Positions 17,832 through 64,000 of a stretch of 64,000 nucleotides of DNA are shown piece after piece. Source of the DNA: Natronomonas salina (lineage in GTDB: Archaea > Halobacteriota > Halobacteria > Halobacteriales > Haloarculaceae); contig NZ_CP058335.1 in NCBI RefSeq assembly GCF_013391105.1, positions 2,914,001 to 2,978,000 of the forward strand, given 5' to 3'. Numbering within the stretch: position 1 is the stretch's first letter; each line of letters opens with the position of its first letter. The notes beneath the pieces are model-generated. The model worked only from the letters and a program-made list of their open reading frames with translations. It searched no databases and was not told the origin of the DNA. Made by a program: the position numbers and the translations under genes.

Positions 17832-18153
17832 CCGCCGGTCGCACCGCACTGACGGCCGCAACCCACTAGCCGCTCGAACTTACCAGATGAGTGATTTTAT
17901 TCAAAACAGTCAATAGGTTCCAGTCACACATGGGTGATGGGGACGACCGCTGCGGGGGGTGTGACATTCCCGTCATCTCCATCAACAGCGACTCTACTGG
18001 TCGAACCCCCCAGGGTTGTTCCTCGCGACACACGATCGGCAGCCGTCGCTGTGCGTCGACAGCGTCGAGGGGTCCGGGCGCCGAGAATCGTCCCCGAGAT
18101 AGCGACCCCGTGGCGGCACCGCTCTTATCAGCGAGTCGACCGAAGATCGGGTA
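17832..18153. other. Intergenic region with two TATA-like elements
   Basis: This 322-bp stretch holds ATTTTATTC near 17892 and CTCTTATCA near 18121, the latter correctly placed for the next gene. A frame from 17930 to 18154 with a CGGC motif exists but has poor codon bias; see the rejected list. Confidence 0.4.
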
Positions 18154-55864: not shown

Positions 55865-56815
55865 CAGTTGAGTTTGGGATTGACAGTTTCGTTGGCAGTG
55901 TGATTCGATCTTGAGTGTCCGTTCGGGCCACGTCACGTCGGACGGGTGAAATCTGGGATGGGACCGACGGGCCTCGATTGGGATGGCTGGTGCTACATAA
56001 TTGTAGTTCAACTGTAAAAAATCAGTTGGCCGATTGCGCTGGATGTTGTTCACACCTCCTCACATTGGGGGGACTGAACACTTCCAGCGACCTGGAACTC
56101 TCACATATGGGACGTCCTTCTCTGCTAGTCCACAATGGGATGCTCCGTCAGGGTGTGAAAGGTGGAAGTCACGTCCGAAATCACACCCTTCTCTCGGGTG
56201 CGAATCGGCAGAAGACAGTTTATCAGTCCGGTGTGGAGGGTATAACACCCATTGAGACTCTCCGGAAGTTACTGTGTCTAATGCCGTGTGGTGACCAAGC
56301 AACGCAGGGCCAGGCAGAATTGGATCGGTAACTGGCCGTACCCAGTACTAGGTCGCTGAAACAGCCGGATAGGGGATATTGAGTGCTGCAGAGATGACTG
56401 TCGGCCATGCTTCTCGGATTTGCTGGCTCGAGTCCGAGAATCGAAATCGGCCGGAACACCCCCCGATTGTAGGGGGTGTGACGGGGTTTCAGTATCCTGT
56501 GTCTCGGTCAGAATAGCGGTTGCACTGCATGGAGGGCTCCGGTCGATAGCAGCGGAGAACGCGTGTTCGACCCGAAACAATGGTGCCGGATATCAGTGTC
56601 ATCGATAGCTGGAAGCCGGTCGCTCAATACGGCGCGGCACACAGGGCACGACAGTTCACCTTTCGGAGCGACGGTCTCCCTGTGGAATCAGCCACAGCCG
56701 TTCGTCAGGGCCACAGGCATCGAGACAGCCGTTTCGTAGGGGTGTGACGAACTTGGTAGAGAGACTGAATCGTAATCGATTCATTTCCTCCAGGTAACGC
56801 GTCAATGAATGCTCG
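55865..56815. other. Long non-coding region with GGGTGTGA repeats (candidate origin)
   Basis: About 950 bp with no convincing gene. The word GGGTGTGA occurs three times on the plus strand (56151, 56474, 56740) and once inverted (56181); TCACACCT at 56050 is a near copy. The pair at 56151-56188 faces each other across 22 bases. A hairpin ACACCCCC/GGGGGTGT sits at 56456-56479. This is next to the prim-pol gene, as expected for an iteron or origin. Confidence 0.55.
56456..56480. repeat. G-rich hairpin ACACCCCC/GGGGGTGT
   Basis: An 8-bp inverted repeat around CGATTGTA, part of the repeat-rich gap before the prim-pol gene. G-runs flanking origin repeats are typical of haloarchaeal origins, but this is suggestive only. 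Confidence 0.45.
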
Positions 56816-57955
56816 ATGGTAGATTCGCTGCCGACAGCTGGTGACCTCCCGGCGTCGCTCCTCGAGTACGACCAGTGGCTCTGCTGGCGGACCGAAGACC
56901 GCGACGGGAAGGCGACCAAAATCCCGATCGATCCGACGAGTGGAGAGTTCGCCTCGACGACCGATCCGGAGACGTGGGCGTCCTTCGCGACGGCGCGAGA
57001 ACAGGTGCAGTTCGGGACCGAAGATGGCGTCGGCTTCGTGTTCACGGACGACGATCCGTTCGTCGGCGCGGACCTCGACGACTGTCGCGATCCCGATGCT
57101 ACCACGACGGCAGCGTGGGCCGACGACATCATTGAGACGCTCGATTCGTTCACCGAGGTGAGTCCATCAGGTACTGGGGTCCACGTGCTGGTGGCAGGGA
57201 GCCTGCCGGAGGGTCGGAACCGGAAGGGCGACGTGGAGCTGTACGAGACTGCACGGTTCTTCACCGTCACCGGCGACCACGTCGCGGGAACACCGTCTGA
57301 GATTCACGAGCGGACCAGTGAACTCGAATCCGTATACGAGACCTACGTCGCTCCAGATGAGGAAGCGAGCGACTCCGAGTCACAATCTGCTGTGGATGCA
57401 GGTCGAACGGTCACCCTGACTGACGAGGAGTTACTGGAGAAGGCGACAGCAGCCGCGAACGGCGAGAAGTTCGAGCGGCTCTGGCGGGGATCGACGAGCG
57501 GGTACGAGAGCCACTCGGAGGCTGACATGGCACTGTGTTCGTTGCTCGCATTCTGGACCGGTGGCGACCCACAGCAGATGGATCGCCTCTTCCGCGATTC
57601 CGGCTTGATGCGACCGAAGTGGGACGAACAGCACTACGCAGATGGCAGCACGTACGGCGAGAAGACGATCGAGCGAGCGATCGCCGGAACGAGCGAATTC
57701 TACGAACCTGACGCAACCACTTCTGGAGGTGACAGTGCAGAGACAGCGCCAGCAGTCGATCTCGAGGATATCCGGGCTCGAGAAGCCGAGCGAGCCGACC
57801 GCATCGACGAACTCGAAAAGCGGCTCAACGAGGTTCTGCAGGAGAAGCGTGAGCTGCAGGACGAATTAGAGCGGGAACGGGCGCGTCGTAAAGAGCTGGA
57901 GGCTGAACTTGACTCGATTCGTTCTGAAGAGGCGTCGCTGTTCAATTGGTTCTAG
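56816..57955 (+). CDS. NrS-1-type primase-polymerase (prim-pol) protein
   Basis: A 379-residue protein of the phage/plasmid NrS-1 primase-polymerase class. The catalytic Asp pair is in FVGADLDDCRD (about residues 82-92), with metal or nucleotide contacts in SFTEVSPSGTGVHVLV (about 115-130) and ETARFFTVTGD. A helix-bundle part with GYESHSEADMALCSLLAFWTGGDPQQMDRLFRDSGL follows, then a C-terminal coiled coil of about 60 residues (RIDELEKRLNEVLQ...). The helicase domain of full-length relatives is missing. It is likely the replication protein of an integrated element. Confidence 0.85.
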   Translation: MVDSLPTAGDLPASLLEYDQWLCWRTEDRDGKATKIPIDPTSGEFASTTDPETWASFATAREQVQFGTEDGVGFVFTDDDPFVGADLDDCRDPDATTTAAWADDIIETLDSFTEVSPSGTGVHVLVAGSLPEGRNRKGDVELYETARFFTVTGDHVAGTPSEIHERTSELESVYETYVAPDEEASDSESQSAVDAGRTVTLTDEELLEKATAAANGEKFERLWRGSTSGYESHSEADMALCSLLAFWTGGDPQQMDRLFRDSGLMRPKWDEQHYADGSTYGEKTIERAIAGTSEFYEPDATTSGGDSAETAPAVDLEDIRAREAERADRIDELEKRLNEVLQEKRELQDELERERARRKELEAELDSIRSEEASLFNWF

Positions 57956-58924: not shown

Positions 58925-60109
58925 CTACGGTAGTGCCGTTCGCAGATCATCGCGGAGGTCATTAACGTCTTCGAGGCCAACCGACACCCGAACCAACGTC
59001 TCCGGAATCTCCGCCGTCGCCTCCCCATGGCTCACCTCGTCTGGAATCATCAACGACGGTACCTCAACAAGGCTCTCAACACCACCGAGACTGGCTCCCG
59101 GCGTGAAGACATCAAGCCCCTCGAGAAACGCTTCTAGTTCGATCAGCGAGCCGTCGAACTCGAAGGACAGCATCCCGCTGTATCCCGACATCTGCTCACT
59201 CGCAAGCTCATATTGTGGGTGACTCTCAAGACCCGGATAGTACACGCAGCTCACCCGGTCGTGGTTCTCAAGGAATCGCGCCACCGCGATCGCGTTTGCT
59301 TCGTGGTGTTCCATCCGTGCTGGCAACGTCTTCAGCCCCCGCGAAACCAGATAGCAGTCGAACGGCGACAACATGTTGCCAAGCCCGACCCGCTGGGCAA
59401 ACGCCAGCTGCTCAAACACTGCATCGTCGTCGGTGATGATGGCCCCACCAATCGAGTCGGAATGCCCGTTGAGATACTTGGTCGTGCTGTGGACAACAAT
59501 GTCGGCCCCTAGTTCGAGCGGAGCTTGGAAATACGGACTCCCAAAGGTGCTATCCACACCTAAGGGAATGTCGTGGTCGTCAGTAATTTCAGCTATCGAC
59601 CGGATGTCGTACAATCGTATCAGCGGATTCGACGGCGTCTCTACCCACACCAAGTCGGTGTCTGAATCGACGGCGGCAGCGACGGTGTCGGGATCACGCG
59701 CATCGACGAAATCGATGTCCACCCCGAAATGTCCGGCAGCGAGTTCCGTGAGAAGTTTCTCGGCGCCACTATAGAGTGAATCGGCGGCGACGATATGGCC
59801 ATTGGGGGGAACCAACGACAGTATCGTCGTCGAGATGGCTGCCATCCCGGAGGCGAACGCCAACCCATGCTCGCCGCCTTCGAGGCGGGCTAACTGGTCT
59901 TCGAGAGCTGCTCGCGTTGGATTGCTCTCGCGTGAGTAGTCGTGTTCATTCGCGTCGTCGCCGCTGGCCCACTCGAACGTGGTGGTGAGGTGGATCGGCG
60001 GAACAACGTCGTTCGTCCCCCTTCTATGGGGGCGCCTCTCGGTCTCTGTTGACCCGACGGCTTTGGTTGCAAAGCGGTTCCCATCAAGTCGGTCATCACG
60101 TTGTGTCAT
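58925..60109 (-). CDS. Cystathionine gamma-synthase/lyase-type PLP enzyme
   Basis: A 394-residue Cys/Met-metabolism PLP enzyme. The cofactor Lys is in VHSTTKYLNGHSD and phosphate-binding residues in ASGMAAISTTILSL; the substrate Arg region is EVPSLMIPDE. It either joins homoserine esters with cysteine (gamma-synthase) or cleaves cystathionine (lyase). Start at 60109 (MTQRDD), as longer N-termini are Arg/Pro-rich and unlike the family. It is complete and stands alone. Confidence 0.88.
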   Translation of the reverse strand: MTQRDDRLDGNRFATKAVGSTETERRPHRRGTNDVVPPIHLTTTFEWASGDDANEHDYSRESNPTRAALEDQLARLEGGEHGLAFASGMAAISTTILSLVPPNGHIVAADSLYSGAEKLLTELAAGHFGVDIDFVDARDPDTVAAAVDSDTDLVWVETPSNPLIRLYDIRSIAEITDDHDIPLGVDSTFGSPYFQAPLELGADIVVHSTTKYLNGHSDSIGGAIITDDDAVFEQLAFAQRVGLGNMLSPFDCYLVSRGLKTLPARMEHHEANAIAVARFLENHDRVSCVYYPGLESHPQYELASEQMSGYSGMLSFEFDGSLIELEAFLEGLDVFTPGASLGGVESLVEVPSLMIPDEVSHGEATAEIPETLVRVSVGLEDVNDLRDDLRTALP

Positions 60110-60328
60110 AAGTGGCTCAGTTCTGATTCTATTGACCGGTGGTGGTCTCCACCGATACCATAGACGTGACCATAGGGGTGGCCGGTCTAAAGGTGACTTG
60201 TTGTGGAATTTTGGCGTTGAGAGAACAATATCCCGAGTTGGCCGACGGGGCAAGTGAGTGGTCTCAAAAAAGATGGTGCGTCACTGGAGGAGAAACGTCT
60301 TGTTCGCGTATGGGAGTGAACTGTAGTA

Positions 60329-60649
60329 ATGTATCTTGTTACGTTCCGGCTTGCTCCGGGGGAGTACGATACAGAGTTCCATGAGTTGAATGACGCAATC
60401 CAAGCAGCTGCAGAGGACAGGGAGGGATATTTGGGCAAGCGGACGTGGAATGCCCCGGAGAGTGAGGAGGTTCTCGTCGTGTATTATTGGGAGTCGTTGG
60501 ACGCACTGGAGTCGTTCGGGGCAGATCCTGACCATGAACGAGGAAAACAGCGGTGGACAGAGTGGTACGAAGCGTATGAAGTCACTATCACAGAAGTTGT
60601 TGAGGCATACGGGAGTGGGTTCGGGGACGATGCAGACCCACCTGTATAG
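60329..60649 (+). CDS. ABM-like small dimeric alpha/beta protein
   Basis: A 106-residue protein: MYLVTFRLAPGEYDTEFHELNDAIQAAAEDREGYLGKRTW and VLVVYYWESLDALESFGADPDHERGKQRWTEWY. This is the layout of antibiotic-biosynthesis-monooxygenase-like (ABM) proteins, dimeric ferredoxin folds that act on small molecules or haem. No residues define a reaction. AT-rich codons compared with the rest. Confidence 0.75.
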   Translation: MYLVTFRLAPGEYDTEFHELNDAIQAAAEDREGYLGKRTWNAPESEEVLVVYYWESLDALESFGADPDHERGKQRWTEWYEAYEVTITEVVEAYGSGFGDDADPPV

Positions 60650-61150: not shown

Positions 61151-64000
61151 CTACGCTTGCTCTAGGAGTGAATCACGCAGGTACTGCAGCGTGTGTAACT
61201 CGGTCATCCCCTCGAAGTCGAGTTGGAACTGCTGCGGTGGCGTGTTCTGACTGTAGACTTTGTCGACCCGCGGTTCACCCTCCGGGGGTTCGTTGAGCGC
61301 CTTCAACACGTCGTGGACGCCGTCGCGATTCTTCACCACCCAGATGGCCTCCTCAGGTTCGAGCGCCGCCATCTTGTCGTAGTCGGCGGGGACGGCCGTC
61401 CGGGTGTCGTGATTCGACCGCTCGGCCTCCACCACGACGATCACATTCCCATCCGCGTCGAGCCCAACCACGTCATATCGATGGCCGTCAGCCTCGTAGT
61501 AGGCCATCACCTCGACGACCGGCGACGACGGATCGTCGACGAATGCCTGTACGAGGTACCGCCGACTCAGCTCCACCATCATCACGTGGAGACTGGATTC
61601 CCCGAGGTCGCCCTCGCCATGGCCGTACCCGACGCCCTCGGTGTAGTCGATCTTCGCTGCCTCACGCCCCTCGGCTGTCACCGTGTAGAGCTTGTGCGGG
61701 TACGAACAATCTTCGGCGAGGACCCCGGCCTCGAGCAGTTCCTGTACCTCGTCGTGACTCACGTCGACGTACTCCTGGAGTCGAACCATACTGTCGTAAA
61801 GGAGGTCGTACTCCCATTCAGCGTCGAACTGCTGTTGGTGAGCCATATAGACGGCCTGGAGGAATCGGAGTTGTGCGTCCGTGTACGGGCTCTGGCGGCG
61901 CTCGGCTGCCGAGAGCTTCAGATTCAACTCACAGATCGGGATCTCATCTCGGGTGACGTCCGCATCGCTGTGACAGCAGTTGATCGCTTGTCGCATGCCG
62001 TCGCTCGTTGGATCGAACCGATTCTCGCAGTTCGCACAGAGGAGGGCATGCTTCTCGGCATCGTACTCGACCGGATCAGGCATCCGGTTCGTGTACGGGA
62101 GCGCGGAGTCGAGTCGAGCATCCTCGTCGATGGCGGCTACGGATGCCGGCTCGGTCTCCGGCACAGGGTCTGTCTCAATCTCGCTGGACGTCGTCTGCTC
62201 TTGATGGCGGGCCATCCGCGCCTGCTGGGTCTGCAACGCAACATCGATCCCGTGCTCCAGTCGCGTCTGATCGCGGACGACGTCCATCGCCGCGTCGAAG
62301 GCAGTCTGGCGGACCTCCGAGAACGGCTCGTCGCTCTCGGGATGGCCCGCTGGAATCGGCGCGCTCTCCAGCAGGAACGGGCGGGGTTCCTCGACGCCGA
62401 ACTCGGAGGGTAGCGACGCGAACCACTGGCCACGATGGAGGCCGCGTAGCCTGTTTGCGACCTCACTCGGTGGCATGTCCTCGGTGGCGAGCCGCTTCGC
62501 GAGGTCGTCGTCGACGGCGACGTTCCCAGTGATGATCGTCGAGACGTTGTTCAGGAGTTCTGCATAGGCCTCGTGGTCGGCCTGCCGGAGCTGGGCGGGG
62601 AACTGCATCGCGAGCGTCATCGACAGCCCGAACGCCCGCGAGCGAGCGAGCAGGTCGGTGACCAGCCCCGAGGAGGCGATGGTCGCTGCCTCCTCGAGGT
62701 ACAGGTTCACGAGCGGGAGGTCCTCTTGGTCGGCCTGGCGGTGGCGTCGCTGGAGTGCACTCCAGAGCTCCGAGAGCAACACGAGCGTGATCGTCCGTTG
62801 GCTCTCGGAGCGGAGCGCCCCCGTATTGACGATGACGACCGCGTCCTCGTCGATCACGTCCCGGAAGTCGAACTGTGGGTCGTCCTCGTCTTCGGGGATG
62901 TGATTGAACAGCTGGCCCAGCCGGTCGTCGAGCGGGACTTTTTCGATACGGTTGGCCACACCCTGCATCAGCTCGTCGAACGATCGCTTGCTGTTGGCGG
63001 CGACACCGGAGAGCATCCGCTGGAGATCCTGGTCGGAGACCGGTGGAGCGTCGCGCGTCTCGTGCATCCGGCTCGCCGCTTCCTGAAGCTCCCGGTGGCG
63101 AAAGGCGTCAGCGCCGTGGACCGGGTCGAACATCGCCTTGACCAGGTACTGGATGATGTCCGGCGATCGGACGGCACTCCAGAATCGGTCGGAGCCCATG
63201 ATGCCGACGAGCATCTCGACGTAGTGGTCGACGATGTTCTCGATCGCGGTCGTCCGATAGATGCCGTCATCGAGCTGATCACGGATATCGAAGAAGGAGA
63301 TCGCGGGCAGCGTCTCTCGGCAATCGAAATAGTAGACGTTCTCGAGGTCGCCGTATCTCGCGTAGTGGGCTTTGAGGTACTCGATGGGCATCCCGTCGCC
63401 CTTCGGGTCGATGAGGATGTTCGCACCGCTGGTGGCCTCATGATTCCAGAGCATGGCGTTGATGAGCGCCGTTGACTTCCCGGAGCCGGTCTTCCCGAAC
63501 CAGGCGGTGTGGAGGTCCTGTAGCGACGGTGGAAGGGCCACGGGTGTCTCGAGTCGGGTGCGGTCGCTGGTCAACGGATAGCCGAGCAGCATCCCGTGGT
63601 CGTACTGGGATAACAGATCGTCATCAGGGCGAGGGATGCCAGTCCGCTCTTCGGGCGTCGCCTGCATCGCCCGTCGGCCCTCGTGAGTGAGCGATTCGCC
63701 ATCGAGCAGACAGAAGTTCGGCGTGGTGAGTGGGTCGGCGACGATGGCTCGCGAGTCGTTCTGCGTGATCGGGAGGCGCTGTCGGAGGCGCTTGGTGAGC
63801 GGCTGGCTGTCGATACAGTCGACGGCGTCGATCTGGTCGGCGATCTCAGTGGTCGACTCGTCGTCAGTGTAGACGCGCGGGACGATGCGATAGTGCTCGT
63901 TGCTCACCGGTTGGAAGGCGCTGCCGAGTTCCTCGAGGACCGGCTTGGCGTCGGAGCCGTCGGCGACCGCACGGACGTTGACGGTGAAGGACTGCCGCGG
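61151..64000 (-). CDS. VirD4/TraG-like DNA-transfer ATPase, cut off by the window edge
   Basis: A very large protein read from the right edge; the frame is open across a GTG at 63907 and continues beyond 64000, so the true start lies outside. Walker A is FGKTGSGKSTALIN (63460-63510) and Walker B LVNLYLEEAATI (about 62690-62715). The motor domain is like VirD4/TraG coupling proteins of conjugative elements. After about residue 570 (counted from the GTG) come a Cys-rich CANCENRF...NCCH site, a winged-helix-like part (VDVSHDEVQELLEAG) and a C-terminal domain with RYDVVGLDADGNVIVVVEAE, resembling a PD-(D/E)xK nuclease fold. Complete length unknown. Likely the DNA pump of an integrated element. 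Confidence 0.85.
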   Translation of the reverse strand, partial: PRQSFTVNVRAVADGSDAKPVLEELGSAFQPVSNEHYRIVPRVYTDDESTTEIADQIDAVDCIDSQPLTKRLRQRLPITQNDSRAIVADPLTTPNFCLLDGESLTHEGRRAMQATPEERTGIPRPDDDLLSQYDHGMLLGYPLTSDRTRLETPVALPPSLQDLHTAWFGKTGSGKSTALINAMLWNHEATSGANILIDPKGDGMPIEYLKAHYARYGDLENVYYFDCRETLPAISFFDIRDQLDDGIYRTTAIENIVDHYVEMLVGIMGSDRFWSAVRSPDIIQYLVKAMFDPVHGADAFRHRELQEAASRMHETRDAPPVSDQDLQRMLSGVAANSKRSFDELMQGVANRIEKVPLDDRLGQLFNHIPEDEDDPQFDFRDVIDEDAVVIVNTGALRSESQRTITLVLLSELWSALQRRHRQADQEDLPLVNLYLEEAATIASSGLVTDLLARSRAFGLSMTLAMQFPAQLRQADHEAYAELLNNVSTIITGNVAVDDDLAKRLATEDMPPSEVANRLRGLHRGQWFASLPSEFGVEEPRPFLLESAPIPAGHPESDEPFSEVRQTAFDAAMDVVRDQTRLEHGIDVALQTQQARMARHQEQTTSSEIETDPVPETEPASVAAIDEDARLDSALPYTNRMPDPVEYDAEKHALLCANCENRFDPTSDGMRQAINCCHSDADVTRDEIPICELNLKLSAAERRQSPYTDAQLRFLQAVYMAHQQQFDAEWEYDLLYDSMVRLQEYVDVSHDEVQELLEAGVLAEDCSYPHKLYTVTAEGREAAKIDYTEGVGYGHGEGDLGESSLHVMMVELSRRYLVQAFVDDPSSPVVEVMAYYEADGHRYDVVGLDADGNVIVVVEAERSNHDTRTAVPADYDKMAALEPEEAIWVVKNRDGVHDVLKALNEPPEGEPRVDKVYSQNTPPQQFQLDFEGMTELHTLQYLRDSLLEQA

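Follow-up and report, generated by a model that had tools for sequence, protein, structure and literature searches.

The region of interest spans positions 55865 to 56815 of a 64,000-nucleotide window (the whole stretch of DNA analysed, G000:C1:2914001-2978000), which derives from a genome, G000, represented by a single contig of 3.75 Mb. It is non-coding, as the first-pass annotation had stated, with a membrane-protein-like ORF on the minus strand (start at approximately 55865) on one side and the start of a prim-pol gene (56816 to 57955, plus strand) directly on the other. Pfam and structure-chain matches indicate that the 379-amino-acid product of this gene carries an NrS-1-type AEP and HBD part without a helicase. 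Specifically, the protein matches PF22763 (NrS-1 polymerase HBD domain) with an E-value of 5e-33, and residues 14-299 match solved NrS-1-type primase chains (PDB 7rr3, 6k9a and 6a9w) with an E-value of 8e-44. These chains presumably belong to the NrS-1 phage polymerase, an enzyme that has a C-terminal helicase. The AEP and HBD part, corresponding to residues 14-299, is common to this polymerase family and the window prim-pol, whereas the latter yields no helicase match in Pfam, stops at 379 amino acids and ends in a coiled-coil-like tail. Relatives of the protein (E-value of at most 1e-60) are present in 90 of 293 related genomes. Matches were also obtained on 133 of 72,556 plasmid records, and those listed are haloarchaeal.

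A TraG/VirD4-like ATPase gene (61151 to 64000, minus strand) is convergent with the prim-pol gene and runs beyond the end of the window. This ATPase family is found in seven of the ten prim-pol loci that were compared. Positions 58925-60649, between the two genes in the window, hold a gene for a Cys/Met-metabolism PLP enzyme and a monooxygenase-like gene, and in locus L129 the prim-pol and ATPase genes are separated by 17 bp.

A word search of the window located four exact copies of the box GGGTGTGA in front of the prim-pol gene. These reside at 56151 to 56158 (plus strand), 56181 to 56188 (minus strand), 56474 to 56481 (plus strand) and 56740 to 56747 (plus strand), the last of these approximately 70 bp upstream of the prim-pol start. 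A near copy, AGGTGTGA, occurs at 56050 to 56057 on the minus strand. The count of four exact copies and one near copy on both strands that had been reported previously is therefore confirmed, as are the inverted arrangement of the 56151 and 56181 boxes, with 22 nucleotides between them, and the longer form common to the copies at 56474 and 56740, which is seen as TAGGGGGTGTGACG at 56470 and TAGGGGTGTGACG at 56738. Elsewhere in the window the 8-mer is present only at 17957 and 48548. Nor is it as frequent elsewhere in the genome: a count over all 3.75 Mb gave 59 copies (36 plus and 23 minus), whereas the reversed control has 21, and a cluster of four copies within 1 kb occurs nowhere else.

The first-pass annotation had also proposed that chance predicts well under one copy. 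This holds for the particular 8-mer, but a test that considers any 8-mer is fairer because the word was chosen after the region had been inspected. At least four copies of any 8-mer in 951 bp arise with P values of 0.010, 0.018 and 0.08 under Markov models of order 1, 2 and 3, respectively (2000 simulations for each order). On its own, the cluster is thus modest and suggestive rather than decisive. The decisive evidence is the comparison with homologous loci and not the number of boxes.

The third exact box overlaps the right arm of a central palindrome, ACACCCCC-N8-GGGGGTGT, at 56456 to 56479. When 20 genomes of the genus were searched for ACACCCCC-N6..10-GGGGGTGT, the pattern was found at nine places in four genomes, whereas the reversed pattern used as a control gave none. 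A search for the window's own sequence covered 392 genomes of the order. The 63-bp element at 56436 to 56498 (plus strand) has a second copy, 90% identical, at 2831970-2832032 of its own genome.

The module in the window is located directly upstream of a prim-pol gene, as are those at 1.71 Mb in genome G010 (G010_pp) and at 2.02 Mb in genome G002 (G002_pp). The module at 1.08 Mb in G002 (G002_1083) sits between mcm and a shortened prim-pol gene, whose 209-amino-acid product was identified by its N-terminal sequence and has no Pfam match. Others are found just downstream of mcm (G010 at 2.81 Mb), just downstream of a prim-pol gene (G011), beside an HRAMP operon (G000 at 2.83 Mb, G000_HR), beside a tyrosine recombinase gene (G002 at 1.98 Mb, G002_1979) and without a telling neighbour (G010 at 3.50 Mb, G010_3496). 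In five of the nine, no prim-pol start follows the module. The mcm gene adjoins the module directly in two species (L155:9606-13271:- and L153:4663-8664:+); Pfam identifies an intein in the L155 product. More loosely related modules are found in upstream regions of G003 and G008, giving nine strict and two looser modules in all. Alignment of the nine reveals homology that extends past the palindrome, although it is weak for G002_1979. Extended half-sites of the palindrome reach P<0.05 in only one of the nine copies, and the flanks of the window copy give a P value of 0.59.

A divergent operon of three genes lies approximately 450 bp from the G000_HR copy. Its first product is a weak match to a type III RAMP family, and relatives of this product were found in 45 of 195 genomes. 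HRAMP is described as an array-less, type III-derived relative of CRISPR (PMC8730458, PMC12669027), and the 2.83-Mb operon fits this description.

Boxes occur at these modules in genome-specific forms, here counted between -320 and +330 of the module centre. The two G000 loci carry four and two copies of GGGTGTGA, the three G010 loci carry six, six and two copies of GGTGTAC, and the three G002 loci carry six, eight and four copies of GGGTGTA. The agreement inside genomes was equalled by only 2 of 560 label permutations in a test confined to the two letters after GTGT and to boxes outside the palindrome, with G011 omitted as it has a single locus. Related boxes are also enriched upstream of the prim-pol genes of other genomes, at L129 (P of 0.003), L131 (0 of 300) and L073 (P of 0.02). 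The positions of the boxes tend to match among copies, and the sequence between them is mostly unalignable. Because the boxes differ between genomes and agree within them, a trans-acting binder is indicated, and one such binder per genome would be the simplest reading. In one case, G010_3496 and G010_pp align with 69% identity over 611 bp, and therefore common descent contributes to the shared boxes, some of which may have arisen by duplication within a genome.

A second recurring feature is an ORB-like sequence, which occupies one alignment column at approximately +110 from the module centre. With a pattern composed after the loci had been inspected, it was detected in 5 of 11 modules (G010_pp, G002_pp, G002_1083, G003 and G008) and in none of 400 shuffled sets of 11 modules. 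The same pattern has a single match in approximately 758 kb of other non-nested sequence and seven in 11.5 kb around the orc1/cdc6 genes of G000 itself (L158). Neither G000 module matches; in the same column, the window copy has TTCGACCCGAAACAATGGTG (56566 to 56585, plus strand), a degenerate ORB-like sequence that lacks the G-string. The ORB-like sequence of G003 and G008 continues straight into GGGGGTGT, and one ORB of the orc region in G000 ends in GGGGTGTGGGGGG, which together suggest that the boxes correspond to the G-string ends of ORB-like sites.

Other characteristics of origins are unevenly distributed among the copies. Outer arms are supported at P values of 0.04 or below in six of nine modules, and the inverted score exceeds the direct score in four of these. 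Inverted arms are clear in all three G010 modules (0 of 500 shuffles) and in G002_1083 (0.004), whereas G002_pp (0.04) and G000_HR (0.018) give direct-repeat scores that are equally high. The arms are not significant in the window copy (0.16), G002_1979 (0.17) or G011 (0.19). A check for an AT-rich zone identified 55985 to 56034 as the most AT-rich stretch, with a peak of 68% AT over 40 bp at 55995 (the 99th and 99.9th percentiles of the window are 60% and 70%). This is at best a weak candidate for an unwinding zone; AT-rich stretches are modest across the module copies and vary in place, and none is strong or constantly located. Furthermore, no orc1/cdc6 gene is present beside the window module, and the nearest one in the genome that scores above the family cut-off is approximately 197 kb away. 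Because the window copy is among the weakest with regard to the ORB-like sequence and the arms, it may be inactive, although its prim-pol gene is intact.

Iteron origins consist of regularly spaced direct repeats that precede the gene for a replication protein and are bound by that protein. The region resembles them in having short repeated boxes and an adjacent replication gene (prim-pol, 56816), which had led to the proposal that this is a standard iteron origin bound by the prim-pol. This proposal is unsupported. The exact boxes are irregularly spaced (30, 293 and 266 bp) and lie on both strands with one copy inverted, no DNA-binding domain was recognised in the prim-pol besides its AEP/HBD part, and the same boxes appear at modules without a prim-pol start behind them. 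Moreover, none of 35 regions upstream of other prim-pol genes (one locus, L015 = L084, being counted twice) contains two or more copies of GGGTGTGA, and conservation of this box before prim-pol orthologs was rejected on these grounds.

We consider the best explanation, at roughly even chances, to be that 55865-56815 served, or still serves, as the replication origin of an integrated plasmid-like element whose initiator is encoded elsewhere. The candidate origin proposed in the first-pass annotation is thus plausible and is the best-supported reading, on account of the homologous modules and not of the number of boxes. The element would carry the prim-pol and the TraG-like ATPase, with the region acting as its origin in cis. 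The boxes, with a GGGGTGT core similar to the G-string end of haloarchaeal ORBs, would be bound by an initiator, for which a single Orc1/Cdc6 paralog encoded by the host is the likeliest candidate. The initiator would then open the DNA in or close to the module, after which MCM of the host would be loaded, and the prim-pol would provide priming and early synthesis. Support comes from comparison, which reveals that the module recurs, that its boxes are specific to each genome, that some copies have an ORB-like spot and that replication genes are neighbours. Against an origin are the weakness of the window copy (in G-string, arms and flanks), the lack of a nearby orc1/cdc6 gene, the fact that most prim-pol orthologs are box-free, the absence of the module from plasmid and viral records, the lack of a strong or constantly located unwinding zone and the possible contribution of duplication to the shared boxes.

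Haloarchaeal origins are marked by orc/cdc6 adjacency, inverted ORBs and G-strings (PMC3528665, PMC4010727). The modules resemble such origins in that 5 of 11 have an ORB-like sequence with a G-string and in being non-coding and located beside replication genes. They differ in lacking an adjacent orc/cdc6 gene, in having a single ORB-like spot rather than several inverted ones, in the additional GGGTGT boxes and palindrome and, for the window copy, in the missing G-string. A non-coding region directly before a prim-pol gene is also a feature of prim-pol plasmid replicons such as pRN1 (PMC4234260), whereas the window prim-pol has no helicase and no free plasmid was found. Indeed, among the 72,556 plasmid records there is no match to the window region, and two homologous modules gave only chance-level matches. 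The module is present in none of the viral contigs, and a viral source was rejected for this reason. No published description of the module was found in the literature searched, a search in which subscription papers were mostly outside the scope.

A different function for the same boxes would be that of an operator, at which a trans-acting transcription regulator controls prim-pol and other genes located elsewhere. The position of the last box, some 70 bp ahead of prim-pol, and a similar placement in the G010 and G002 copies are consistent with such a role. However, the gene start closest to the other three exact boxes is approximately 290-340 bp away, five of the nine strict modules have no prim-pol start to regulate, and an ORB-like spot is unexpected in an operator; we regard this possibility as unlikely.

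It is quite unlikely that the region is a partition or site-specific recombination site, with a centromere or an att/res site formed by the arms and palindrome. Some copies do have inverted arms, and tyrosine recombinase genes are present near three of the nine modules (L129, L153 and L156), but these genes are on differing sides and at distances from approximately 170 bp to 3 kb, and none was noticed in passing at the other six. We are still more doubtful that the modules are remnants of a non-autonomous mobile element that was copied around each genome, such that the boxes are common by descent only. The one to three scattered copies per genome with differing flanks, and the within-genome pair that aligns over 611 bp, would be expected from such an element. 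In contrast, other copies within a genome align at the boxes, arms and palindrome only, which indicates selection on those parts, and a non-systematic inspection revealed no sharp ends or target duplications.

A structured RNA, such as an HRAMP guide RNA, is very improbable. The 63-bp element does recur beside the HRAMP-type operon, and its predicted fold has a z score of -2.3, with 6 of 200 shuffles equally good. Yet there is no meaningful match in Rfam, eight of the nine copies are away from HRAMP operons and the boxes are on both strands. The guide RNA reading specifically was rejected because the other copies lie elsewhere and the HRAMP leader-RNA model R1 gives no match in the region. Finally, a chance cluster of an 8-mer, although P rises to 0.08 in the order-3 simulations, is hardly credible given the independent clusters of related boxes at homologous loci of other genomes.

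Several observations concern HRAMP loci themselves. A conserved three-helix RNA is found upstream of HRAMP cas7, for example at L067:15796-15892:- and at 17 other HRAMP-locus places, often approximately 20 nucleotides before a small ORF. Its model yields 19 matches at E-values of 0.001 or below in 28 sources, 18 of them at HRAMP loci, and in 13 sources it has no match to Rfam up to an E-value of 0.5. In the 19-row alignment, which was fitted to the model, 93.8% of cells pair compared to 34-54% when the alignment is slid, and 9 of 17 pairs are changed on both sides. This RNA is possibly a leader or guide RNA of the array-less CRISPR relative. The match in G000 (G000:C1:766240-766336, or L112:6241-6337:+; E-value of 3.7e-8) is away from the 2.83-Mb operon. 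In L061, L063 and L072, HRAMP cas7 is overlapped or immediately preceded by a short TnpB-like gene, with one weak OrfB_IS605 match; the idea that the HRAMP leader hairpins are a TnpB omega-RNA was rejected because the RNA is situated immediately ahead of small ORFs and also recurs where no TnpB-like gene is present. NrS-1-like prim-pol genes are located within several kb of HRAMP operons in L073 (G008) and L137/L074 (G101). In 5 of the 21 HRAMP loci that were mapped (L064, L069, L074, L075 and L076), Orc1/Cdc6-like genes, one member of which was checked by Pfam, are within approximately 6.5 kb of cas7, and HRAMP may therefore move on elements that bring their own origins.

More tentatively, the modules could constitute a dispersed family of orc-less origins in one genus. 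Each genome would keep no more than three copies, next to prim-pol, mcm or HRAMP genes, and a single initiator in trans would serve them all; its box would have changed between species in every copy together, a genome-wide co-evolution of initiator and sites. The copy at 2.83 Mb would also tie an HRAMP-type operon to a plasmid-type replication module. If the modules are origins, then haloarchaeal chromosomes hold initiation sites that are missed by looking beside orc1/cdc6 genes, and the box sequence is a direct handle on the pairing of initiator and site. The change of the box among species over dispersed copies would then preserve a natural record of how initiators and their sites co-evolve.
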